Shown here: one piece after another, positions 29,561 through 55,702 of the stretch
Position numbering within the stretch: the stretch's first letter is position 1
Layout: every line of letters begins with the position of its first letter
Made by a program: the position numbers and the translations under genes
Notes under the pieces: generated by a model
Told to the model about the DNA's origin: nothing
What the model saw: the letters and a program-made list of their open reading frames with translations, nothing else
The model's database searches: none
Origin: Aspergillus flavus
Taxonomy: Eukaryota > Ascomycota > Eurotiomycetes > Eurotiales > Aspergillaceae
Direction: 5' to 3'
Length of the DNA stretch: 64,000 nt
NCBI RefSeq assembly: GCF_009017415.1
Contig: NC_092410.1
Coordinates: forward strand, 3,782,001-3,846,000

Positions 29561-30170
29561 ACGCAGTGTCCCTGTATTAAAAGCTGTACGATAAAACGTA
29601 TAATAGAATGGAATGACTTGACATCATGATTTGGTGGTACTTTCGTTGCGCCTCTGGAATCTACGCGAAAATGAATGAAATTGACGAGTACTAAACTGTC
29701 CAACACTGATGTTGACAAACAACATCGAGGAAGATCAGCTCACTTATTCAATAAGGAGGTAGGGTTTCATATCGCGCTGTTAGCGCTGTCAAGGCGAGTA
29801 GTCGCCAATCCGAGTCTCTGGGCGAAGGCTTTGCTTTGCTTCATCGGGCCGGAAGGGTCCGTTTCTATGCGCAGTGAAACTGTGAAAGACCATTAGGCAT
29901 ACACTAACCGAGTAAAGGATCAGCGGGAGAAATTAAAGTCAGATAGAACAGCTCATAAGTTCTCCATTTCCCCCACGACCCCGCAGGTCCCAAGCTGGAG
30001 ATGTGAGACCGGAACCGAAGTGTGGTTGTTCCGCCGGAACCGTGATGCCGATGAACATACTACTTATTTCAATAGGCCCTTCAGCGATTATAAGGATGCA
30101 GTTTAAATCTTCCTTTTTTCATTTCTCCAGATTCACCCCTGAATACCTTGTTTAGAGTTTAGGGAGCAAA
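29561..30170 (+). promoter_or_regulatory. Promoter of the polyol dehydrogenase with 13-bp inverted repeat and CreA-type sites
   Basis: Upstream of the 30171 start codon lies GTTCCGCCGGAAC at 30028-30040 (143-131 bp before ATG), an everted repeat GTTCCG-C-CGGAAC. A half-like CCGGAACC lies at 30009-30016. Two hexamers matching the CreA consensus SYGGRG on the minus strand sit at 29971-29976 (CCCCAC) and 29979-29984 (CCCCGC). The exact 13-mer recurs in the transporter promoter. Zn2Cys6 regulators typically bind paired CGG triplets, so this is the likely target of the neighbouring regulator (inference), under carbon repression. The first part of the interval is the peroxiredoxin 3' flank, with no gene. 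Confidence 0.6.
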
Positions 30171-31390
30171 ATGGCTACAGATACTCATCCCGTATGTTGA
30201 TCGATCCTGATCTTCTTCCATCCGCTGACCAGTCTCACAGACGATCAACAAAGCTTCCGTACTCCGCCCCGGCGGCTCATTTTACTATGAAGATAGAGAG
30301 AAACCTTCATTAGAATCTGATCGAGATGTGATAGTACGAGTTGTCGCCACCGGTCTCTGTGGCTCCGATGTAAGTAGCCTACCCACGCAGCCTGCATCTC
30401 AAATTCCCACAATAGCTAACAAAGGAACAGGTCCATTACTGGCAACACGGTCGCATCGGTCGCTATGTTGTTGAAAACCCCATAGTTCTCGGCCACGAGT
30501 CCTCCGGCATAGTTGTATCCCGCGGTGCCAAAGCATCCGGCATTGAAGTTGGCGACCGCGTCGCGATCGAGCCCGGAATCGCCTGCAACACCTGCAACCC
30601 ATGTCGCAGTGGTCGGTATAACCTATGCAAGGACATGCGTTTTGCCGCGACTCCCCCATATGACGGAACGCTGTCCACATACTACCGCGTGCCCGTTGAA
30701 TGCTGCTACAAGTTGCCGGAGCATATCTCGCTGCGTGATGGCGCGCTGGTCGAACCGCTCGGAGTTGCGGTGCATGGATGCCGACTGGCAGGGGATCTGC
30801 AGGATAAGTCGGTCATTGTTTTCGGCGCGGGGCCAGTCGGACTGCTTTGCTGCGCTGTTGCGAGTGCGTTCGGTGCGTCGACGGTCGTCGCCGTGGATAT
30901 CGTGGCTGCTCGACTCGAGTCCGCAAGGAAGTACGGGGCTACACATACATACCAGATGAGCGCGGAGAAGTCTCCCGCGCTCAACGCCGATGCCCTAGCA
31001 GCTACAGCGGGACTCATGGATGGCGCTGATGTTGTCCTCGATGCTTCAGGTGCTGAGCCCTGTATCAACTGTGGAATTCATGCGCTGGCGCATGGTGGAA
31101 CCTTCGTGCAAGTCGGACTTGGAAGACCGAATCTGTCCTTACCCGTTGGACAAATCTGCGACAAAGAGGCTGTGTTCAAGGGTAGCTTCCGATACGGGCC
31201 AGGAGATTTCAAACTGGCTGTTGGCTTGCTGAACTCGCGGCGGGTCCGGGTCGATGGGTTGGTCACTCATGAATTCTCTTTCTCGCAGGTCGAGGAAGCG
31301 TTCAAGCATGTTGCTGGCAAGGGGGGTATCAAGAGTGTGATTTACGGACCGGACGTCGATGTCGAAGCTGCAAAGCAAGCTTCAGTATAG
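30171..31390 (+). CDS. Zinc-dependent sorbitol/xylitol-type dehydrogenase
   Basis: Exons 30171-30191, 30241-30369 and 30431-31390 give 369 residues. This is a medium-chain zinc polyol dehydrogenase. Catalytic zinc ligands are in GLCGSDVHYW and GHESSG, with the structural zinc cysteines in CNTCNPCRSGRYNLC. The NAD site is GAGPVGLLC, followed by VAVDIV, whose acidic residue favours NAD over NADP. The family oxidises sorbitol, xylitol or related polyols to ketoses in the cytosol; which polyol cannot be told. The C-terminal FRYGPGDFKLAV fits the sorbitol/xylitol branch. A close paralogue lies at 54502-55702. The converging gene is the Zn2Cys6 regulator, only 86 bp away. This pairing and the shared promoter motif suggest a sorbitol/fructose pathway gene of the local cluster. 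Confidence 0.92.
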
Positions 31391-31476
31391 TATCTCTCCG
31401 TTGGTTTTGCCATACAGTGGATATAGATCTATAGAACTGTACATTAAAAAAAGAAATCAGAAGTACTGCTCATGTC

Positions 31477-34149
31477 TTAACTGCCCATCCCGTCCCATGT
31501 CATATCCCATAACCAATACATCCCACTTTCACCATTTCCTAAATAAGGGTCTTCGACCCCCATTGGGACAGCGCCAGCACCGTCCCAACCATAGTCCATC
31601 GGGACCTGTACGGGGAATTGCGACTCGGTATTTTGATTGGGCGGCTGATGCGTCTGATGATGTTCGCTGGAGAGAATATTGACCGAGCGGTCATTCCCAG
31701 GTGGTAGAACTAACCAGGAATCGCATTAGCATTGGACTATCTAAGTTTGCGAAAAAAAAAAGAAAAAACAAATAATTACCATGGTGAACAGTAGTCAAAC
31801 TCTCATTCAGCCGAACAGCCCGTCCAGGATCAGGCCGGATATGATTACCCAGTACTGGATCGGACAGACCCATCGTTCCATCTAGGGGTAGTCGCAACGT
31901 ATCCTCAACTGACATACGGCCCAGGCTGGTCGGATCCTGCGTGACATGATGTCCAAGTCTCGGGGGGTATCCGGTGATAGGTCCGAATATGACCTCCGAC
32001 TCGCGACGGAGGAGCATTGTAACCACGTTCTTTAGAACCGTGGTACTCTGCTTTGAAAGGGCGGATCGGGTCCCGATTAGGTCTTGTAAACGGAGGATGC
32101 GTGTGATGGTCCGTTTGACGACCTGTGCTGTGTCGGAGAGGGGTTCGGAGAGGGCCATCACGACCAGCACGATGGCGGCGTTGAAGAGGTTGATTGCTAG
32201 GAAGGCGACGAGGTGGCTGTCTGTTGCTAGCTGGGCTAGAACGGGCATTTCTGTGACGCGAGCTGTGCGCACGGCTGCGTTCATCCATAGATCTGAGCTG
32301 GCGGCTTGTGCGGTAGGGAATGGGGTTTCGAATGATAGGCCTGGGGTGGAGTGGCCGGAGGATGCAGCTGGATGGGATGCGGGTGAGCCGCCGTCGCTGC
32401 TGCCATGTGGTGGTCGTGTAGCTGAGGTGAGATGGTCGACTTGTCGTGCGAGTAGTGGTCGATGGAGGACGATGAGGACGTTGTCGTATGTGAGTTGCAA
32501 TGAGAGGGACTGCAACGCGTGTGCCCTCGACCCGGGTTCTCCGTCCGGGTGGTAGTCTCGCTCGAGATCTAATGCTAAATGGGCTGGGAGAGAGACTCGC
32601 CATCTTTGCAGCTCCTGGGTGGCATGTTTGACTAGAGAAGCATATGTGTTTCCGGCCAGCTGTTGCGATGTACGAAAGGTCCGTGAACCGAATACTGCTT
32701 CTAGTGCTGGGGAGGCGATCAGGTAGAGACGGTTTAGCTCGCGCTGGTATGCGGAGTAGCAGATCATGTTATTGTCGCTGGATCCTGGTGTGGTAAAGGA
32801 TGGGTTCTCTAGTATGTCGGCGGGCATGCTGAGATTGCAGTCCTTGTCGTTGATTCCCAACGGCCGACCGTAGGTGATGGAGGCAAACCGGTCCCAGGTG
32901 TAGATCGTCCACCACACTCGCTTTCTTTCTTCAATGTCTCCGAATTCGCCCTGGACGGGTTCCCGGTGCATGCCCAGTGCTTGGGACATTTTGATTGTGG
33001 CGCCTAATAAGGCGAAGGAGAGGTTTGGTCGACCATGGTAGACGTGGTGGGATCCGAGGAGGATGCAGGTCTGCACGGCAGTCACTGAAGGCTGGTCCAT
33101 CAATTCTACCAGGTTTGCTTCGACGATCTTTATTAGATCGGCACTCCATTGTCGCCAATGATCCCTGGTGTCTTCGGTGTCGCGATTCCGTTGTGATCGG
33201 TACCAAGCTGCCATTCCGAGCATGACCGCCAGCAGCAAGAGAAACGGCTTCTGTGATGGATAGGCAGAGCCATCTTCAATGGAGCGCAGTCTTCTGCGGA
33301 ATTTGGGTTCATACACCACCAGCGAGAACCAATGGATCGCATCGAAATACTCCTCCAACAGCTCATACATCAAATCCCCAATGGGTAGCGGCTGGCCCAA
33401 GATGGAGGATATGGGGAGCCGTTGGCCAGCTACAGCCGACTGCGCGACGGGCGCACTGGTACTTGCACGATAACCTGGAATAGCAAAGGTCGTTCGCTCG
33501 TCAATGTGTTGACTCCCTAGTTCACAGATCTTGCGCGCCAGCCCCATGGCCGACTCGGCCTCGCCGCAGTCGATGGCAGAGCGGGCGCTGTGCTCATCCG
33601 CCGGAAGGAAGTCAGCACCGGGCGCATTAGCGTCCGGCACTTCCACCTCATGGCGAGGACTGTCCTCACGATCCGGCGGCTGTTCGGCCGGGGGCATGCG
33701 TGGGGGTTTCGATTGACGCCGAGAATTCCTCAATGTACGTCGGGATGCCACTCGGCTGCACCCGCAACGTTGCATCCATATCAGCCACCTGACGCCGAGA
33801 GGAAATTCTACCCACTAACTCACTTTCGAGCAGCATCTTTCTGCTGCAACGGCAGAGCCTGGCAATCCACATTGGCTCTTACACAAAGCGTGCACGGTCG
33901 GAAAGGATCGCACTGTAATAATATCAATATCCCCATCGTCATTAATAGGACCCTTAATGCCGAGGAAAAGTAGGAAAATCGGCTTACCCGAGATTTATGT
34001 AGACGGCATCGTTCACACGCACTGCTCACCCGAGTCGGTAATGACGACCGTAAATGTCTTCTACTTCTTGTTGATCGTGGGCTGTCGGTTGAGACTGTTC
34101 TTGTCCGACGATCCATTAGATCATCAACTGGGGGGTGATCCGAGGCCAT
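31477..34149 (-). CDS. Zn2Cys6 transcription factor, likely local pathway regulator
   Basis: Four exons, 34149-33988, 33912-33824, 33755-31780 and 31709-31477, give 819 residues. The zinc cluster CERCRLHKSR|CDPFRPCTLCVRANVDC (about residues 45-71) is split by the first intron exactly before its third cysteine. The basic SRRTLRNSRRQS region follows. The central part is a fungal_trans domain (RVWWTIYTWDRFASITYGRPLGI). The last intron has a GCTAATG branch point and restores a Gln/Pro and acidic/aromatic C-terminus (DYGWDGAGAVP...WDMTWDGMGS), a plausible activation domain. Reading straight through that intron would give an artefactual end. It lies tail to tail with the dehydrogenase and 1.6 kb from the transporter. 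The ligand is unknown. Confidence 0.88.
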
Positions 34150-34764
34150 GGTGGGTTTATGCCAGAGTCGGATGATGCTTGGAGTTTGAGTGATTTTTGT
34201 CCCGATTTTTGGGTTGTTTTCCCCACACTTTCTTTCCATCCTCCACGGCCGAGACGCTGCTCCGATGGGTCGTTTTACGAGATACTCTCGTATTCCGGGT
34301 CAATGGATATCCCTTTTTTTTTTTTTTTTTTTTTTTTTTATATTTTTTAGTCTTCTTATTCTGTCTTTCCTCTAGTTAAAGCGAACTTGTGTATGTCTAT
34401 CTTGCACTGACCCTTTCGCTAACTCCAGACAATTCACTTTTCATTGGTAGTTCCAATTCTGGGAGGATGGAAGTTGCCCTAATCAGTTGCCTTTGCCTTT
34501 CCCGCAGAGAAACGGTACACTCACAAACAACGAGGAGTGGTAGAGCTTCACAAATGATGGCGTAATTGGAGATATGGTATGGAGGGACTACCAGTACTGC
34601 AACGAACGCGCAGCAAATTAGGGAATCTAGAAACAGGGTTTTGTTTCTCCAAGATCCGTTCATCTTGGGTAGGACAAAACTTCAAGACCCAGTAGGAAAC
34701 AGTCGCTCACGGGGCCTCAGCTCCCATAAGTAGCATCAGTTATCTTCGATGGACAATCATTATA
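34150..34764. other. Regulator promoter and poly-T tract
   Basis: This carries the promoter of the minus-strand regulator and a 26-bp T run at 34314-34339. I see no copy of the GTTCCGCCGGAAC motif here, so autoregulation through that site is not supported. No gene. Confidence 0.55.
34314..34339. repeat. Poly-T tract, 26 bp
   Basis: Uninterrupted 26-bp T run about 165 bp upstream of the regulator start, on the strand that is A-rich in the regulator's orientation. Poly(dA:dT) tracts of this size exclude nucleosomes, so it may set promoter accessibility. Confidence 0.9.
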
Positions 34765-35484
34765 ATGGCCGAGTCGCACTCTACCCCCTGTACCAACGAC
34801 TCTTCAACTACGCCGAATGGCTGTATTGCCCTGACCTTTGAAAGAGGATACTACCGTCATGACAACTTCTTCATCAAAAGAAGTTTACGACCCAGTGAGT
34901 ATCAAACCGGATACAAAGGTCTCCACATCCCCAGACTAGGCAAAGAAAGACTCTAGAACGAAGCCAAGGTCTTACAGTTCATCCGTCGCGTCAGCAATAT
35001 CCCCGTTCCGAAGTTATGCGCTGCATTCGAGATCGATGACTCTTACCTCTTGTTCATGGAATACATCGACGGCATATCCATGTCGCAATTAACAGACGAA
35101 CAAAAGGAGGTGGTCAATGTTGAACTCCAGCAACATCTGGATGTTCTGCATGGAATCAAATCCAAAAGTATCGCTAGTCCTTCCGGGATCGTTATCCCGC
35201 CGTATCGAGTGATGCGTCAATCGAGTAAGGATGCCTGGTCTCGTCTATCATCTGAAACTTGCGATTATGTGTTTTGTCATAATGATCTTTCTCAGGAGAA
35301 TGTTATTGTGGATCCCGAAACACTGAAGATAAAGGCGATTATCGACTGGGAATATGCGGAGTTTTTTGCGGCTTACTTCGATTACCCTTTTTATAAGAGG
35401 CTGGGCCCTTCTATGGCATTGGAGGGGGAGAGAGATGATGTACCGGAACTGCTTCAACTTTTGAATTCGGAGTCAACGAACTAG
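34765..35484 (+). pseudogene. APH-family phosphotransferase gene with one in-frame TAG
   Basis: One frame from ATG 34765 to TAG 35482-35484 encodes an aminoglycoside-phosphotransferase-fold (fungal APH/choline-kinase-like) protein of 240 codons. It is interrupted only by TAG at 34954-34956. The parts read GYKGLHIPRLGKERL, stop, NEAKVLQFIRRVSNIPVPKLC, LLFMEYIDGISM, the catalytic CHNDLSQENVIVD and metal-binding IIDWEYAEFF. Family members have an ordinary residue (often Arg) where the stop lies. No GT-AG intron removes the stop in frame. The rest is intact, so this is a very recent loss, a readthrough gene, or a sequence error. It lies inside the polyol/fructan locus between regulator and transporter, but the family is ubiquitous and its role unknown. 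Confidence 0.7.
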
Positions 35485-35712
35485 GCTGCGACCATCCTGG
35501 TATATACTATAGTATGCTTTACCGAGGCCTAGGGGAAGCTTTACTACGCAACGTTTTCTGTTATAACAATGCAGTTGATACATGCGAGCATCCAAAAGAG
35601 GCAACTTGAAAAATCGTGAACTCCATAAATTCGTTGACCAACTCTCTCTGGCTAGCTAAAAAAAGTACATGGGAAAACGTATAACACAAATATACACCAC
35701 AGGAAAATAAAT

Positions 35713-37390
35713 CTAAACAGTCTCATGATACTCAATCTGTCCCTCATCCTGACTTAGCATCTGCTTCGCCTTTGAAATGGACGTACTCTGATCTGTAAGA
35801 GCCTGCTCCATCTCAATATACCGTGCCGGTCGTGCAACGCTGATAGCCTCCGGGTTCCCATTGACGAAGATACTATGATTCTCACGGAAGAAAACATCGA
35901 TATCTTCCAGCGCACGATTGGCAGTCTCAGGGTAGAAGAAGTAAACAACGGGAATGAAAGAAAAGTTGAACACAGTCCAGATAATATAAAACTTCCATCC
36001 CAAATTTTGAATACCGACTGGAGTAACCTCAACCACCATGAAATTCATCGCCCAGTTTGTCGCTGTACCGAGCGCGGCTCCCTTCGTCCGCATGCTAAGT
36101 GAGTTGAGTTCCACTGGGAGAAGCCATCCGATACCCTGGTAACTGCAGCCAAAGAACAGGTAGTAGCAGAAGAAGAAGGCGACTGCTGCAGCTGCTACTT
36201 GAGTCTGGTGGGGGTAGTCTGGTTTTTCGCTGAATCGGAGTAGGACTGTGATCATTAGGTAGCAGACTCCCTGTCCTAAGGCGCACCAGATCATGAGTTT
36301 GCGTCGACCCCAGCCGTCGATCTTGGGAATGGCTAGCGTGCTGGCAATTAGGTATGAGACGGAATTGCAGGCTGCAAGCAGTCGCGATAGTGTTTCGGAT
36401 AGTTTGACGGATTCCATCAAGACAGTGGGCAGGTAGTATGAGGTGACGTTGATACCAGCCAGCTGTTGCATGGCCTGTGCCCCGGCTCCCAGTATTAGAC
36501 GACGAATCACGCAGGTACCACCCTGGTCCCCGGTCTGGCCGCGTAGGAGCTGTCCCCAGGAGATGGCGTGTTCGCGTTCATATTGTACCGCGGTGATGAT
36601 CTCGGTATAAGCTGCGATGACATGGGGATCGTGGACATCTTTGTTCTCCAGATCGCCGATGATCTGTTGTGCATTCTCCGTTTTATCGTGTCCAATCAAC
36701 CAACGAGGCGACTCTGGAAGCCATGGGACGGTGGCATAGAGGACGAAAATGAAGACAAATTGGAAAGCAAGTGGGAACCGCCATGAAGCCGGTCCAGGCA
36801 CAAAGGAGAATCCGAACGTCATCCAGTTCGAAAGCGAATAGCCAGCCACGTTGAGAATCATTTCGATGATTACGAGCTTGCCTCTCCATTTAATCTGTGA
36901 AGTTTCGCCCTGCCATACGGGAGCCGTGGCCGTGTTAATGCCGTTTCCTATGCCGGCGACTACTCGACCGACGATCATTTGAGGCACACCATAGGCTGCA
37001 GTCTGTAGAACAGCCCCGATGGCCATGATCGTCGTTCCAAGTAAGATCGTCTTTTTGCGACCCCATTTTTCTCCGACATACATGGCTGCTATGGCTCCGA
37101 GTAGACAGCCGACATCGTAGATGGCCGTAATTGTTCCTATAAGACTCGCGTTGTTGTGAAGATGCAGTACATCAAGAAAGTCTTTTGTCACGATGACGCC
37201 TCCTGAAACGAGAACGAATGGCCGTTAGTGAATCACTGGACACATTAGGGAGAGGACAGAGAGGCATACCAAAAACACCCTGATCATAACCGAACAGCAT
37301 CATATCCGTTGCACAAGCAACGGTTACCCAGAAGGTCAGCCATCCTCCTTTCAAGCCAAAGTACGGCTGACTGAATCTACCCTTAGCCAT
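35713..37390 (-). CDS. MFS sugar porter family transporter
   Basis: Exons 37390-37270 and 35713-37202 encode 536 residues with about twelve membrane segments. Sugar-porter signatures are GYDQGVFGG, GEKWGRKKTIL, GRVVAGIGNGINTATAPVWQGE, LPESPRWLIGHD, QQLAGINVTSYYLP and GCSYQGIGWLLPVE. YFFYPETANRALEDIDVFF closes the domain. A cytosolic tail follows. The plasma-membrane substrate is a hexose, polyol or disaccharide and cannot be resolved from sequence. Its promoter carries the same 13-bp motif as the polyol dehydrogenase and three CreA-type hexamers. With a GH32 enzyme next door, uptake of sucrose/fructan products or of sorbitol is a reasonable inference. Confidence 0.92.
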
Positions 37391-38272
37391 TTCGGTGCAC
37401 TAATAGTATGACACAAGTGAACAATATGAGCACACTTAGGGATACCTACCATACACGTGGGGATCCGTGTGTGGTTTTATACTAATCTACAATACCCCAG
37501 GATATACATCCCCACTCTCCAACCAACTGTAACCCAAGACTACATAGTCACTGTAGCCCCACAATTGCGAACCATTGAGTGGATTATCACTAGACACTAG
37601 TCTAGAATGATAGTCATAATCCGGAGTCGAAACCTGGAGTAGTCTGCCCATGGGGTTGAGTGTGTTCGGTTCCGCCGGAACCTGACCTTTCGATGATCGG
37701 TTCCGGTCAACATACAGTTCCGCCGGCGTTCAGGCAACAGGACAGGGACAAAATAAACGCAATGATCGGCCCGTCCGGTTATGGGGTAATCGTTATATCT
37801 ATGAGCGATTTTTATCGTAGTTCATGTGCGCGTCATAGTCACCGTCGTGGAAGATGACGCTTGTGGAGGGACGGCTCGGCTTAACCATATTGATTAGGTG
37901 AACGAGGTGATCATGAGTTTATTTCCAGGGAGTTTCCCTTCAGGTATCAAACCTGGTCATGGATACGAAGTTTTCTTTAATAGACTTTGGAAGTGACGTT
38001 TGGGCACACTTTCACATCGATAACCTGGTCTCCGGCGGCCGGCGAGGTGGTTTGCCGGGCTCGCCTGTTCTCGGCTTCCCGAGTCGATCGCCAGCCCAGA
38101 GGTCCAGCGGTGGTATGCCGTTTTGAAGAATTCACGAAATGTACAACCAGGTGAATTACTCTGAACTAACTAGGTTTTATAATTATTAACTCGACCACAG
38201 ATTTTACTTTCCATGACATCGAGCTCATATATACAAAGCAACCCTTTCCCGACCCTATCACAATATCTTACA
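37391..38272 (-). promoter_or_regulatory. Transporter promoter with clustered GTTCCGCCGGAAC sites
   Basis: On the upstream side of the transporter start (37390), an exact GTTCCGCCGGAAC lies at 37669-37681. A related CGGTTCCGG is at 37698-37706 and GTTCCGCCGG at 37717-37726: three copies within 60 bp. CreA-type hexamers occur at 37457-37462 (GTGGGG), 37510-37515 and 37557-37562 (both CCCCAC). The remaining DNA up to the GH32 stop holds a G+C-rich stretch near 38030-38110 and no gene. Confidence 0.65.
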
Positions 38273-40185
38273 TTAGACACGCTCCGGCCAGGCTTCAAAC
38301 AGGCCCTCGGAGACAGTAACATTGCTGAATGTCACTTCACCCGCACCGTTGTGGTAGAACTTGATGTCAGTCGAGTTCTTGTACCAGGAACTGCGAAAGA
38401 TTGTTAGCCAATGCCTTGTTGTCGACCATCACAGAATACATACCGAGCCCAAGTACTCAGGGCAAAGCGTCCATTGGCATAGATCTCGAGGACAGAGTTA
38501 TCCACAACGACCGTGAGGTCCAGAGTCTCAATTTCCTGGGCATCGCCCTGCAAATCGAACAACCGGAGACGTCCAGACTCATTGGTGCTGACGATTCCAT
38601 TGGTGGTCTTCGCGGCAGCACTGGTGTTGCTGCGGTCGACGATGATTGACTCATTGGAGAACTGGTAGTAGATAGTGGTGCTTTCGAGGTCAGACGACAG
38701 CACTTGGAATCCGGCCTGGAGATCAGAATTACGGGCAGAGCGAGGGAAAGACAGCTGGGCGGTCAGGACGTGGAACTTGGTGGTCGGGGAGACCTGGAAA
38801 GGCACGAGGCCAGCCTCCTTCGATGTGCGCTCGGGCTCGGTGATCTTCGGTCCAGACATGAGAGCTTCACGCGTCTCCCGAGCAATATCAATTCCCAGGG
38901 TCTTCAGCTCAATGCCAGACTGGCCACGCTCTACGCGCCAAGATGATCCCTCTTCCCGGGCAAGCTCATTATCAACCACGTTGGAGATGGTCTTGATGTG
39001 CAGCTCGCGAGGAAGCAGAAGGGTGCCAACCCAGTTTTGTTGCGAAGTGGGGTAACCCTTGGCCTGCTCGAACAAGTCTCCGGTCAACCAGACAAACGAG
39101 ATGAAACGGTCGGGGGCGCCACTCTTTGTGGACACCTGAGAAGTTGCGGGCAGAATATGACCAGCGGCAGCATAGCCAGAAGCACCCCAGTCGAAGACAC
39201 CGGCCATAGTTGGGGTGAAAGTGACATTTCCGTTGTTAGAGACGTTGCCAGCAGCCCACAGCATATCGTGAATGGATGACACCTGGGACACAATAGGAGT
39301 TCCGGATCCCTCAGTACCCAAGGTCATGAACATCTCACCATCGACGCTGTACCCTTCCTCGTTCAGACCGAAGACGTTACCGGTCTCGAAGTTGAAGCCC
39401 CATCCTCCGGCCCAGTCGCCGTTACCCCAGGTCGTGTTGACCTTCTCCTGCCACCACAAGCCAAGATACTCCCAGCTCTCGAGGCTCATTTCCTTCTGGT
39501 CCTGACGATAGAGGAACTGACCAGGGCCATCTTCGTGGACACCACCAGAGATGGCTGTGTACCAGGTCCCCGGGGCGCTGTCCGCGGCAGCGTCCAGCTC
39601 CGGGCTTTGGAAAGCGTAGGGGTCACGGAAAGCGGTCACATCGCTGTCGGACGGAGGGAGGGGAATGACCGGTGGACGATCGAGCTTGGTAAAATTGCGA
39701 CCGCCGTTGGATGTGACGGCCAAGGATTGCGTTTCGGCTCCTGGGTTGTAGGGGATTGACCAATGGATAGGGAGTGATGTGACGGAGGTGTAGAGTAGGG
39801 TGGGCTTGCCGTCAATTCCCTTAGGGATTACAGAGCCATCAAAGACCGCTACAGGATCATTCTTGCCACCAGGCGTGATGAATTGACTTCCGTTGGGATT
39901 CAGATCACGGAATCTGACCATATCATCGGTCGTAGCGCCTGCGATACCACTGCCATTGTACAGGAAGCCAACGTGGAACAGACCGGTGTCAGGATCAGTG
40001 TAATGACCACACGGGTCGCCAATTCGGCCGTTTGGTGGGAGGATATGAGCTCTAGGTCTCCACGTGTCATACAGAGAGCCATTGGCCAAAGTCGAAAGGT
40101 TTGGGGGAGCTGCGTTGTAATCGATGGCGGAGGCAGCGTAGGCCGCCTGGCTGGTGACCAAGGCACTCGCGGTTGAGAGCTTCAT
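38273..40185 (-). CDS. GH32 beta-fructofuranosidase / fructosyltransferase, SucB/1-SST type
   Basis: Exons 40185-38444 and 38390-38273 give 619 residues. GH32 catalytic elements: nucleophile Asp57 in RIGDPCGHY (replacing the WMNDPNG of yeast invertase), transition-state stabiliser Asp188 in FRDPYAF, and acid/base Glu267 in NFETGNVF. The GDPC and ETG variants are typical of the Aspergillus SucB / sucrose 1-fructosyltransferase branch, which makes kestose from sucrose and hydrolyses weakly. The N-terminus (MKLSTASALVTSQAAYAASA) is only weakly hydrophobic, so secretion is doubtful. Many N-glycosylation sequons are present. A weak copy of the locus motif (TCCGCCGGAAC) lies at 40710-40720, about 525 bp upstream. 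Confidence 0.93.
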
Positions 40186-42100
40186 GGTGACGTGCTAGAG
40201 GAGCGAACGAACGGATAGCAAAGCTCCAAAAGCGCTGTCGGGGAGAAGATTTAGCGTTTAAGTAGTATTTTCAATTCATACTACATCTCGTTTGCTCTCG
40301 GTTATTGGCCGAGGTAATAAATGAGGTATGGGCCGCATGCGGGTTGGGGCCCCTGGAGAAGGTACATAATGTCGGCGAAACACCCCATTCCACTATATCC
40401 ACGGGGTAGACTATGCACTGTGTTCTATTTACTCTGTACACCGTTCATCAATGGAAAGAGCACGTTGGACGCACTGCGCGCAATTCTCCGAGGATCCTCC
40501 ATTTCCCCGAGAGCTGGAGATCCAAGCAAACAACTTTTCCCGTCGTAGTAACTGAGGAGGGGCAAAAACTGCATCATGGGTCCGCCAAGTGGTTTTCTTC
40601 CTTCCTGTTCCTGAAGAATGGTGGATCAAAGATCTTGGTAGGCTCCTCAACAAATCTTGGAGCGAACTAGTAACACATCTAGCTGTTTCTCCAAGAGGAA
40701 AGCTTCTCGTCCGCCGGAACGAGAACCATGCGATTGTCTCATCGTTGCGGGGGATTGATGGTCAGATTCCGCGGGGTTGTCTGATCAGGAACGATTGGAT
40801 CAACTGCTGTGGCGTCTAGTGTATGTATCAAACCATACCTGCATGTCATCCATAGGGATACATGCAACTAAATGTCATTCGGATGATCGTGTTCGGGGCA
40901 TCTGCCGAAAACCCCGGCACGTGAGACCTGTTTGCGCTGTTTGATCTGCCTTCCCTTTTAGGAAACTTCGGGCATCAACGCCGTCTTTCCACTCTTGGAA
41001 ATCCTGATCGATATCCACTTCGTCTGAAGACGGAAAAATCCGAAAGTATATCCATCCAGTGTACGGTTATCCTAATTTCTGATACTGTAATACTTTAGAT
41101 GCTATTGTCATATCCTTTATCGTATAACCGTTGACCCTTAGCAAATAGATGATAGATCTTACCCTATTTAAAAGCATACATGTTGGTGATCTTCCCTTTC
41201 CTAGGCTCATCAGGATCGTTTGAAGATCGTCATTGTTGATACATAACGAGACGCATTCGGAGAAACTAGCCTTATGCTTGGGTCTCCACAATTTGCCCGA
41301 CTTGTGGGGATTATCATTTTGAGCTGACCTTCGTTTATTGCCAAAGGGAGGGCCAAGGGGAAACCACGCAAACTATCAAATCCCATGACTGCCTCATAGA
41401 GAAGAAACCTTAATACCTCCATTTCTGGAAGGACAGCCAAGATGTACGGAGTATAATCGTGAGACACAAGGGAGCTTCTGAAGGTATTTCCATACCTCGG
41501 GGATGAAGTATACAATTAACATCGGTTAGTTTTTACAGGCTACAAGAAGACAGCAGCCCTTTTTTCTCTTTATTACTGCTACCACCCATTCTTTATTCAC
41601 TACGATGTTTAATGGTGCTGCGTAAATAGCCGGCCAACTTTCTGTCACATTGATTATATTATATAAAGCAGCTATTGTTCCCCCCGTCTCCGGGCGAGGG
41701 ACATGGCGGAAGAGTTACGCAATAAGATCAATAATGAACATATATGGTACTTTGGCACGCAGGAGAGGATCCGTAATAGCATCTCTAAAGTTCTCCTAAG
41801 GTATGTCGACCGATGCTAGCTCAAATGTTTACTCTCTGGACCCAATGATCAAACAATAGCTTGAAACCAGATTACGAATCTCTTGCGGGCTGCAATTGCA
41901 ATAGCTTGGCAGTTATCTGATTACCAGTAGAGACGTAGTCAGTTCTAATAACGGGCTTCGACTCGATTTGTTTCTGACCTCCGAGCTAGCTCTCTTAAGT
42001 ACAACCTTGGCCATCCGCTACTTGTTCCGAAAACCCCATATACAATTTCCACCGAATGCTCACAGCTCAACTAAAGCTTGCCCTCATCAACTGTACTTTG
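40186..42100. other. Long intergenic stretch, no gene
   Basis: This contains the GH32 promoter, with a partial locus motif TCCGCCGGAAC at 40710-40720, and then about 1.3 kb of A+T-rich sequence with broken frames. A 101-codon minus-strand frame at 41210-41515 has a plausible hydrophobic section but begins and ends without consensus and matches nothing I know. Confidence 0.55.
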
Positions 42101-43598
42101 TTATGTGAGAAATGGCCGACTTGTCTCTATGATAGCGATCTTGAGTAGAGGAATAATATCCCCTAGCTCACTACCCATCACCGTATAAAGTGGACATACC
42201 AGAATATGATCGACTTGGTATTTTCCTGTGTGCCCCAAGTTTCCAAGGATGTTCAACGCCATATCCAGACTTTTCTTGACAACTTGGGAGCAGAACTTGA
42301 CTTGTCCAGGGAAAAGTGTCTTCGCCTTCTTGTTAAGTACAAACTCGACTGCCCAAAATAGACCTCGGCCTCGAATGTTGCCTACCAATGGAAGAGGTCC
42401 GATTTCCTTTCTCAGAAGAGTCTCCAGCTTCTGTCCTATATACGCACAGCGCTCAATGAGATTATCACGCTTGATTATCTTCTGTGCTGCGATAGCGGCA
42501 GCGTATGCTAGAGGATGAGCCTGTCATAAACAGAATTAGACTTTTTCTTCCAGCCTTAAGTGTTTCATGAACAAGAATACCTGGAAGGTATGACCATGTG
42601 CTAATCCACCGGACCCAGAAGATAGCGCCTGGAAGATCTTCTCATGCAGTAAGACTCCAGATAGAGGCACAAATCCTGCCCCGAGAGCCTTTCCAATGGT
42701 CTGGATATCGGGACCTCGGATTCCCTCTTGTTCCCATGCATGCATAGTGCCAGTCTTGCCCATTCCGCAAATGATCTGATAACACTTAAGATGATCCACA
42801 GCCAAGTATAACCTTTCAATCGGGTTCACGAAAGTCACTAACCTCATCCAAGATCAGTAGAACATCATATCGATCACGTATCCCCCTGATAGCTTTGAAA
42901 TACCCATGCACAGCAGGCAAGCAGCCCAAGGTTGCTCCACTAACTGTTTCAGCAATGAATCCAGCCACACGATCTGGTCCAACTCGTAGGATCTCATCTT
43001 CAAATTGCCGGGAAAGTCGTTGAACAAATGCCTCGTCTGATTCGTCTTGGTCTTTCATGCGATAGGCATAACAAGGATCAACAAAAGAGACATTGGGAGA
43101 CATGAAGTCCTGATAAAACTCCCTGCGCGATTCATGACCGGAAACACAGAGGGCTCCGATTGTATTCCCATGGTAGCTCTGTTTTCGCGCGATGAAGTGC
43201 GTCCGGCGTGGCTGGCCTCTCTCATGTCAATATTGAACGGCTAGCTTCAAAGCAGCATCGGTGGCTTCACTACCGAAATTGACAAAGATCGCTTTGGAAA
43301 GACCACCTGGCTTATGTGCCAGCAGCATATCTGCTAGTCGCTCTGTTGCATCATTTGTATATGGAGAACCGGAGTATGCATAGGCTATGTCGTTGCGGAG
43401 ATGCGCGTTAATCGCATTGAATATCTCTGGCTGGGAGTGTCCGAGGCATGAGACTGAGGGGCCGAAGCTTGCATCGATCACTGTTTTGCCATTTTTGAGG
43501 ATCAATCTGATTCCATCTCCGGCGACAATCTTTGAAGGTCTCTCGGAGAAAGACCGGTGGAGAATGTGGGATGAAGAAATGAACTCGTCGATAGTCAT
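42101..43598 (-). pseudogene. Class III aminotransferase with one in-frame TGA
   Basis: Exons 43598-42843, 42775-42581 and 42520-42101 join to 457 codons of a PLP-dependent omega-amino acid:pyruvate/4-aminobutyrate-type aminotransferase. The start is set at MTIDEFISSSHILHRSF. Visible parts: SVSCLGH, FVNFGSEATDAALKLA, SYHGNTIGAL, the aspartate motif LILDE(II) and MHAWEQEGIRGPDIQTIGKALGAG (PLP Lys in GKALG). The end reads VDHILVCPLYT. Between AVQY and HERGQPRRTHF the frame holds TGA at 43229-43227, where relatives usually have an aromatic residue, so TGG to TGA is likely. Both introns are canonical and everything else is intact. It is divergent from a cupin dioxygenase, 144 bp apart. Confidence 0.8.
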
Positions 43599-43742
43599 CT
43601 CCTCGTAGTCGGAGGTGGGTAACGACAAAATCGCAGGGTAACCGCACAAAGTATTCGTCACGACTCTTTTTCTTTAACTCTCGTACCTAAGTCCCAAACG
43701 GTATAGCTCCAAAGTATACTGACAAATTAAATCCATGAGCTA

Positions 43743-44294
43743 ATGCACGAAACAGACCTACCGAGCGAAATGGAGAAAGGTGATCAATCTACCCTTGCCT
43801 ACCGCGGTCCCAAGCTTCCAAACGTCGCAGAAGACCTGGTTGTCTCGAATGTGCTAGACCTTGACTGCGACGAGCGCCTATGGGTACCCCAAGCCCCAGA
43901 TGTCTGGTTCCAGCCTTTATGTTTCAATGTGTCTCAGGGATATTTTGTCAATATTCTGCGCGTGGGAAAGAGCGGCATACTTTCTCGTCATCGGTACGCT
44001 GGCCCCGTACATGCTACCATCCTACGTGGCCGCTGGCATTATCTCGAGCATGACTGGTGGGCCGAGGAGGGTGGTTATGCCTATGAGCCTACGGAGGATA
44101 TTTATACCCTGGAAGTCCCGGATGGAGTGAAGGAGATGGTTACGCTGTTCCATGTTACCGGTGCATGTATTTATGTCGACCCCGATGGAGTTGCCTTGAG
44201 TATTGAGGATGTATTCAGTAAGCTGCAGGCTGCCAGGAAGTATTATGAAGAGGTTGGGTTGGGAGCCAATTTTGCCGATCAGTTTGTGAGATAG
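43743..44294 (+). CDS. Cupin protein, 2,4'-dihydroxyacetophenone dioxygenase-like
   Basis: An intronless 183-residue single-domain cupin. The metal-binding core shows SRHRYAGPVHATILRGRWHYLEHDW and later TLFHVTG, giving the His/His/His facial triad of ChrR-like cupins such as 2,4'-dihydroxyacetophenone dioxygenase, which cleaves an aromatic ketone with O2. The start could also be the second Met (MEKGDQS, ten residues in). It is cytosolic. Divergent from the disabled aminotransferase, it may be the only intact survivor of a small catabolic cluster. Cupin substrate prediction from sequence is weak. Confidence 0.78.
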   Translation: MHETDLPSEMEKGDQSTLAYRGPKLPNVAEDLVVSNVLDLDCDERLWVPQAPDVWFQPLCFNVSQGYFVNILRVGKSGILSRHRYAGPVHATILRGRWHYLEHDWWAEEGGYAYEPTEDIYTLEVPDGVKEMVTLFHVTGACIYVDPDGVALSIEDVFSKLQAARKYYEEVGLGANFADQFVR

Positions 44295-54501: not shown

Positions 54502-55702
54502 ATGATCAACAAACAGAATGTGAGACACTTCAAAGCTCGACTTTGACTATAAGTCCTTACCTGACATTCCCATTCCAGAACCCATCATTGGTGCTCAAAG
54601 CTGTCCAACAGCTCGAGTTCGAGGACCGCCCGGTACCAGACTTGTTGGAGCCCTACGATGTTTCCGTGCGGATTGAATATACAGGGATATGCGGCAGCGA
54701 TGTAAGTTCTCTATCATTGTTGTTTTTGGAAATGACAAACACAAAGGGTTTAAGGATTGACTCCTATTTTAGGTCCACTACTGGCAGCGCGGCCGAATTG
54801 GCCAATTCATCCTCGAAAAGCCGATGGTGCTAGGCCACGAGTCAGCCGGAGTAGTAGAGAAGGTCGGCTCCAAAGTGAAATCACTAGCAGTGGGCGATCA
54901 TGTTGCCCTAGAACCCGGAGTGCCCTGTCGGCGATGCACGTTTTGCAAAGCGGGGAACTACAACCTGTGCAGCGAGATGGCATTTGCTGCTACTCCCCCC
55001 TTTGATGGCACCTTGGCCAAGTATTATGTTTTGCCAGAGGACTTTTGCTACAAGCTCCCTACGAATGTTAGCTTGCAAGAAGGCGCCGTTGTGGAACCCC
55101 TTAGTGTTGCAGTGCATCTCGTTCGACAGGCCGCGCTGCAGCCAGGGCAGTCGGTAGTGGTATTTGGTGCAGGACCCGTTGGCCTTTTGTGCTGTGCGGT
55201 GGCTCGAGCTTTTGGGGCTTCCAAGGTAATTGTCGTTGATGTGCAGCCTAAGCGATTGGAATTTGCCCGTGCCTATGCGGCAACTGCTCATTTTCTCCCG
55301 GGCGTGGAGACCTCTCCGGCGGATAACGCTGTTCGGCTTCGAGAAGAGAACGAACTCGAAATGGGCGCGGATGTTGTCATCGAGGCCTCCGGTGCAGAGC
55401 CATCGGTCTACACAGGTATCCATATCTTGAGACCTGGTGGAACGTATGTTCAAGGAGGAATGGGAAAGGAGGAAGTTAAGTTTCCAATCACGGCGGCATG
55501 CACGAAGGAGCTCAATATTCGGGGAAGTTTTCGATATTCGAGTGGCGATTATAAGCTCGCTATTGAGCTAATCGCGGCTGGGAAAATCAACGTTAAGGCC
55601 CTGATCACACAAGTTTTCAAGTTTGGGGATGCACCGCGGGCGTTTGAGGAGGTGAAGTCAGGGAAAGGGATTAAGACACTCATTGCAGGCCCAGGAGTCT
55701 GA
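54502..55702 (+). CDS. Xylitol dehydrogenase-like (NAD, zinc)
   Basis: Exons 54502-54519, 54579-54701 and 54773-55702 encode 356 residues. Exon 1 gives only MINKQN; the frame-correct junction is [19 protein letters not shown]. Zinc residues are in GICGSDVHYWQRG and GHESAG, with structural cysteines in [15 protein letters not shown]. The NAD fold is GAGPVGLLC, with the acidic VVDVQPKR selecting NAD. The closing [19 protein letters not shown] and GIKTLIAG are near-identical in layout to fungal XdhA. It oxidises xylitol, and possibly D-arabinitol or sorbitol, to the 2-ketose. The first intron position matches that of the paralogue at 30171, as does the intron at GSD|VHYW. Confidence 0.93.

Follow-up and report, generated by a model that had tools for sequence, protein, structure and literature searches.

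Does the zinc-cluster gene that lies between a polyol dehydrogenase gene and a sugar transporter gene in Aspergillus flavus govern its neighbours, and if so through which sites and how far afield? A first-pass annotation of the window (the whole 64-kb stretch of DNA analysed, which is part of the 4.0 Mb contig C6) had proposed that a shared 13-bp inverted repeat marks a ‘polyol/fructan’ regulon, with the zinc-cluster protein controlling the dehydrogenase, the transporter and a nearby GH32 gene. The proposal is followed up here in the window and in the genome as a whole (37,736,778 bases in 8 contigs).

Splicing yields stop-free proteins for all four genes (Table 1). The dehydrogenase, with Pfam matches to ADH_N and ADH_zinc_N, is a medium-chain zinc polyol dehydrogenase whose PDB relatives are xylitol dehydrogenase, ketose reductase and sorbitol dehydrogenase; by pairwise identity this putative SdhA ortholog is at 71% to an A. 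niger protein of unnamed locus, and its closest paralogs within its own genome, among 40 matches listed, reach 53%. Three paralogs are at 54773-55702 (+) of the window, C6:2092606-2093538 and C6:3900671-3901603 (53%, 53% and 42% identity); one is ~23 kb away in the window and another ~55 kb past it. The regulator gene model, reading from 34149 to 31477, agrees with the earlier placement, and its product has both a six-cysteine cluster (CERCRLHKSRCDPFRPCTLCVRANVDC; Pfam Zn_clus, 4.4e-07) and the middle homology domain (Fungal_trans, PF04082, 1.9e-28). With an A. parasiticus protein it shares 98% identity; of its 120 listed relatives, 40 have the six-cysteine pattern in their first 200 aa and 80 do not. 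To the left of the dehydrogenase is a gene of 1-Cys-peroxiredoxin type. The interval between regulator and transporter has a short APH/choline-kinase-like frame (34957-35484, +), possibly a worn gene, that matches just the late part of the profile, and at 42816-44294 a class-III aminotransferase gene (-) is divergent from a ChrR-cupin-like gene (+).

Table 1. Genes and promoter elements of the locus, by position in the window
Feature	Position	Strand	Remarks
Distal element GACCGGAACCGA	30007..30018	+	8-mer CGGAACCG at 30010-30017, 161 bp upstream of dehydrogenase ATG
Palindromic element GTTCCGCCGGAACCG	30028..30042	+	Core 142 bp upstream of dehydrogenase ATG
Sorbitol/xylitol-type dehydrogenase, sdhA-like	30171..31390	+	Exons 30171-30191, 30241-30369, 30431-31390; 369 aa
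Zn2Cys6 transcription factor	31477..34149	-	4 exons, 819 aa
MFS sugar/polyol-type transporter	35713..37390	-	2 exons, 536 aa; Pfam Sugar_tr
Palindromic element, GGTTCCGGCGGAACCG in gene orientation	37667..37682	-	Core 290 bp upstream of MFS ATG
Distal element, GACCGGAACCGA in gene orientation, forward-strand TCGGTTCCGGTC	37697..37708	-	8-mer at -315
Degenerate third copy, GTTCCGCCGGCG; CGCCGGCGGAAC in gene orientation	37717..37728	-	
GH32 gene	38273..40185	-	619 aa; Pfam Glyco_hydro_32N/C
Imperfect single copy	40709..40720	+	535 bp upstream of GH32 ATG; judged chance, outside regulon

Two copies of the 13-mer GTTCCGCCGGAAC, and no more, are present in the window, at their first-described positions 30028-30040 and 37669-37681; none of 100 dinucleotide shuffles contained two. 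The two degenerate copies that had been noted beyond the second 13-mer are also there, TCGGTTCCGGTC at 37697-37708 and GTTCCGCCGGCG at 37717-37728, and the former is the exact reverse complement of 30007-30018, giving a second element that the first-pass annotation lacked. Read in gene orientation, the dehydrogenase promoter has GACCGGAACCGA-N9-GTTCCGCCGGAACCG and the transporter promoter GACCGGAACCGA-N15-GTTCCGGCGGAACCG, so that the order and orientation of 12-mer and palindrome relative to the gene are the same in both; further copies of the 8-mer are at -136 (dehydrogenase) and -284 (transporter). Is this merely a promoter that was copied not long ago? Apart from the elements, nothing but words of 9-10 bases with E > 1 is common to both promoters, so a recent duplication was rejected. 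CGGAAC words are enriched by a shuffle test over 1 kb in the dehydrogenase (p 0.0275) and transporter (p 0.0025) promoters; p is 0.26-0.38 for the reductase (considered below), GH32, regulator and peroxiredoxin promoters.

Genome-wide the 13-mer is uncommon, with 3 copies in 37.7 Mb: those of the two local promoters and one in a coding frame, where it encodes part of FFTGSAGTGKSVL, the P-loop (TGSAGTGK) of what is, to go by the sequence, a PIF1-like helicase, on which account that copy was rejected as a regulon member. Patterns with their letters reversed served as controls, and the counts were 3 against 4 for the 13-mer, 12 against 19 for the core TTCCGSCGGAA and 27 against 66 for GTTCCGSCGGAAC with at most one mismatch; the only counts above their controls were those of the 12-mer (7 against 4) and of the pair CCGGAACCG-N5-35-TTCCGSCGG (2 against 0). 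The motif is thus rare and not over-represented, and since reversed patterns mostly match as often or more, the weight is in placement and not in counts. Stop-to-stop ORFs of at least 110 aa cover 4 of the 12 core sites; the 8 uncovered ones are divided between the local promoters (two), the promoter of a reductase gene (two) and other places (four). The 8-mer is within 60 bp of a core at 4 of the 12: those before the dehydrogenase and transporter genes, the distal one of the reductase promoter and the one within the helicase coding frame, which it overlaps. Lone cores have been seen elsewhere, in surroundings named by eye: TTCCGCCGGAA at C3:4341928-4341938 is ~95 bp before a zinc-cluster-like regulator frame (CDRCRRFKRRC), with a deaminase-like frame on the opposite side, and C5:1642359-1642369 is between O-methyltransferase-like and oxidoreductase-like frames.

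Both genome-wide matches to the pair just mentioned are at the local promoters. Taken alone, the distal 12-mer, two of whose 7 matches are local, was rejected as a marker with four of the five others inside ORFs of at least 110 aa, and so were direct CGGAACC repeats (16 matches, 2 of them local, against 40 for the control), 13 of whose 14 non-local matches are inside ORFs of that size. A looser composite gave 9 matches against 12 for its reversed control, and all 7 non-local ones are inside ORFs of at least 220 aa. The promoter of the regulator gene itself has neither core nor 8-mer, and one CGGAAC, at -861; with core and 8-mer absent, autoregulation was rejected.

Do any other genes belong? 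The core pattern was fixed before the gene in question came to light, and the search with it led to two sites 235 bp apart, C8:2460490 and C8:2460725, both upstream of a short-chain reductase gene on a different chromosome from the window. This reductase matches an A. flavus AF70 protein at 100% identity. Its relatives bear the names L-xylulose reductase, sorbose reductase sou1 and NADP-dependent mannitol dehydrogenase, and in the PDB it is related to carbonyl reductase and mannitol dehydrogenase. In its promoter the cores are at -446 and -211 and CGGAACCG is at -423, the order of core and 8-mer being opposite to that in both local promoters, and CGGAAC is not enriched (p 0.26 in the shuffle test); in the 1.8 kb past the upstream stretch there is no frame of more than 142 aa. 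Composites were then defined as CGGAACCG in either orientation, non-overlapping and 0-30 bp from TTCCGNCGG or CCGNCGGAA, four patterns that on both strands account for all eight orders. They gave 2, 2, 2 and 1 matches (reversed controls 4, 2, 5 and 1), and the seven matches come down to three loci, the two local promoters and C8:2460705-2460735. As these composites were written after the C8 locus had been seen, the three-locus result is descriptive and no independent test. Going by sequence, this sorbose-/L-xylulose-reductase-like gene may be regarded as a better third candidate for the regulon than the GH32 gene.

The imperfect copy attributed to the GH32 gene is where it was said to be (40709-40720). 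It has 2 mismatches to the 13-mer, and the 11-mer palindrome with at most 2 mismatches has 20 sites in the window against 16.6 expected, a number that 28 of 100 shuffles reach; with mismatched palindromes at chance level, the copy by itself carries no statistical weight. CGGAACCG is absent within 1 kb of the GH32 ATG. The InuR consensus site is CGGN8CGG, and the 1,965 bp upstream of GH32 have none. With a single two-mismatch site at chance level and the second element absent, GH32 was rejected as a regulon member, and its proposed control by the regulator is not supported. The first-pass proposal is thus supported in part: the dehydrogenase and MFS promoters do share a two-part element, but the fructan half of the ‘polyol/fructan’ title finds no support.

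Is the regulator a settled companion of the dehydrogenase? Comparison was made of 120 listed relatives of the regulator (of 274), 66 of the dehydrogenase and 120 listed ones of the reductase, with exact size match of the longest contig given for each relative as the measure of co-occurrence. Regulator and dehydrogenase relatives share 27 identical longest-contig sizes; 7 of these contigs are below 100 kb (the shortest 6,573, 30,358 and 40,533 bases) and 10 exceed 1 Mb, where linkage is weak. Every match beyond Eurotiales (Zopfia, Lentithecium, Coniochaeta) involves a contig above 1 Mb. No size among the listed reductase relatives matched either of the other lists (one control value was mistyped). 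Gene numbers of regulator and dehydrogenase relatives adjoin in A. multicolor (BDW74DRAFT_183973/183974) and Talaromyces rugulosus (TRUGW13939_00055/00054). For A. nidulans the NapA/conidia section of one report lists AN2665 (MFS), AN2666 (sdhA) and AN2667 (C6 factor), with consecutive numbers (PMC5371717), and AN2667 is presumably the ortholog of the local regulator. The A. niger sdhA appears as NRRL3_04328 in the accessible part of PMC7982397 and as An07g01290 in that of PMC4651341, and according to an excerpt of PMC12744346 the pentose/glycerol-type transporter NRRL_4329 is specifically co-induced with it where a mutation blocks glycolysis or the use of galactose.

The reading that we consider probable is a small regulon for polyol/ketose use, in which the element is an upstream activating site, most likely operated by the local Zn2Cys6 protein. 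From the position of its gene between the dehydrogenase and MFS genes, this protein would be the natural candidate binder of the two-part element. Binding, activation, inducer and substrates may be pictured as follows. Member promoters would be those with an everted CCG-N-CGG palindrome (TTCCGSCGGAA) and CGGAACCG nearby, and a Zn2Cys6 activator, probably a dimer and most likely the one encoded locally, would occupy them. The zinc-cluster protein may be activated by D-sorbitol, or by some polyol or ketose that arises from galactose or fructose, and on the palindrome and its neighbouring CGGAACCG it would then increase uptake, the oxidation that gives fructose, and the step catalysed by the reductase; the putative targets are sorbitol dehydrogenase (sorbitol to fructose), the uptake transporter and the sorbose-/xylulose-type reductase on another chromosome. 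That sdhA and the transporter are strongly induced when hexose phosphorylation is blocked would fit accumulation of the inducer.

The main rival to the local protein is GalX, which on this alternative would itself act through the element. In A. nidulans AN2665 and AN2666 are down in a galX deletion on D-galactose (PMC9151342, from the part available), A. niger An07g01310 is D-galactose-induced and, in the text available, the only transporter gene reported as affected by GalX (PMC5968117), and the A. niger reductase gene red1 is described in the accessible portion of PMC4651341 as dropping >30-fold without GalX. This dependence of sdhA, the transporter and a reductase gene is the strongest counter-argument to local control. 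If GalX bound directly, other GalX targets should carry the element, yet none of the 12 exact cores is near any other dehydrogenase match (40 listed), this locus aside, and the upstream stretches checked for five paralogs, of which one may be ladB and whose start codons are provisional, are without a core and have at most one CGGAAC. Moreover loss of GalX could act indirectly, by ending the formation of sorbitol from galactose. On balance we think GalX unlikely to be the factor that acts through the element.

CGG triplets are bound by many zinc-cluster proteins, and some other member of the family, or a general factor, might own the element with the regulator's co-location incidental, which seems to us quite improbable. 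XlnR has the consensus GGCTAR and AraR-type sites have their own form, and neither kind is present in the 610 bp before the dehydrogenase or the 870 bp before the MFS gene, even if A. nidulans sdhA is reported, in the portion of PMC4651341 available, to depend on XlnR and AraR too; the frequency with which relatives of regulator and dehydrogenase are on one contig also speaks against incidental co-location. Least credible is that a GC-rich palindrome has turned up as two 13-mers by accident: this would suit the 13-mer, core and one-mismatch counts, which do not exceed those of reversed patterns, and the chance level of mismatched copies in the window, and it is made very improbable by the presence of both non-coding exact copies in promoters, 7.6 kb from each other and accompanied in each case by the second common 12-mer in the same order and orientation, and by the two further cores, 235 bp apart before a ketose-reductase-like gene, that the pre-fixed search produced.

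Returning to control by the local zinc-cluster protein, a broader claim can be put forward tentatively, belief and doubt being almost in balance: that this unnamed protein is a dedicated fungal regulator of D-sorbitol (polyol/ketose) use, retained alongside sorbitol dehydrogenase across Eurotiales and perhaps more widely, that its two-part everted element marks just three promoters, one of them on another chromosome, and that the GalX effects on sdhA and the transporter in other Aspergilli are indirect. Searches of the open-licence literature found no paper tying the regulator to these genes or describing the element, and no sorbitol/mannitol Zn2Cys6 regulator of Aspergillus; SdrA was rejected as such, being listed as a sorbic-acid regulator. 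Among the papers listed for the motif strings, none was, by its title and the start of its abstract, evidently on the predicted regulon, and the accessible parts of PMC13323096 and PMC5106034 have nothing on the transporter and the regulator, respectively. The role assigned to SdhA is itself questioned in the available text of PMC12744346 and by a study cited there. Expression of sdhA has so far been credited to several sugar regulators, and a dedicated regulator with a rare site would, if real, allow direct control by sorbitol to be told apart from control by galactose. Those who work on Aspergillus would also gain a polyol-responsive promoter element and a readout of three genes.

How does all this sit with systems already described? 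The sdhA gene is said, in work by Koivistoinen of 2012, to be needed for D-sorbitol use. In A. niger and A. nidulans sdhA and the transporter (An07g01290/An07g01310; AN2666/AN2665) are of the same gene types, with close locus numbers and reported co-induction, but in the available text of those reports the credit goes to GalX, GalR, XlnR or AraR, and neither the C6 neighbour as regulator nor the element is named. Pathway-specific zinc-cluster regulators of clustered catabolic genes are familiar from the proline, quinate and maltose clusters, which like the present locus have a Zn2Cys6 gene beside an enzyme and a transporter and CGG-triplet sites in promoters; unlike them, the locus here has the palindrome CCG-N-CGG together with CGGAACCG, and one likely target is on another chromosome. 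Nearest in form of site are the yeast everted ones, TCCRNYGGA of Lys14 and the PDRE TCCGCGGA, in which as here CCG and CGG are everted with TCC/GGA edges, and TCCGCCGGA fits the Lys14 consensus; the likeness of their proteins to the local regulator is known at the zinc-cluster level only, and the locus here has polyol-type genes. What would be new is the unusual site and the predicted three-gene scope, and what is already classic is a zinc-cluster gene beside its targets.
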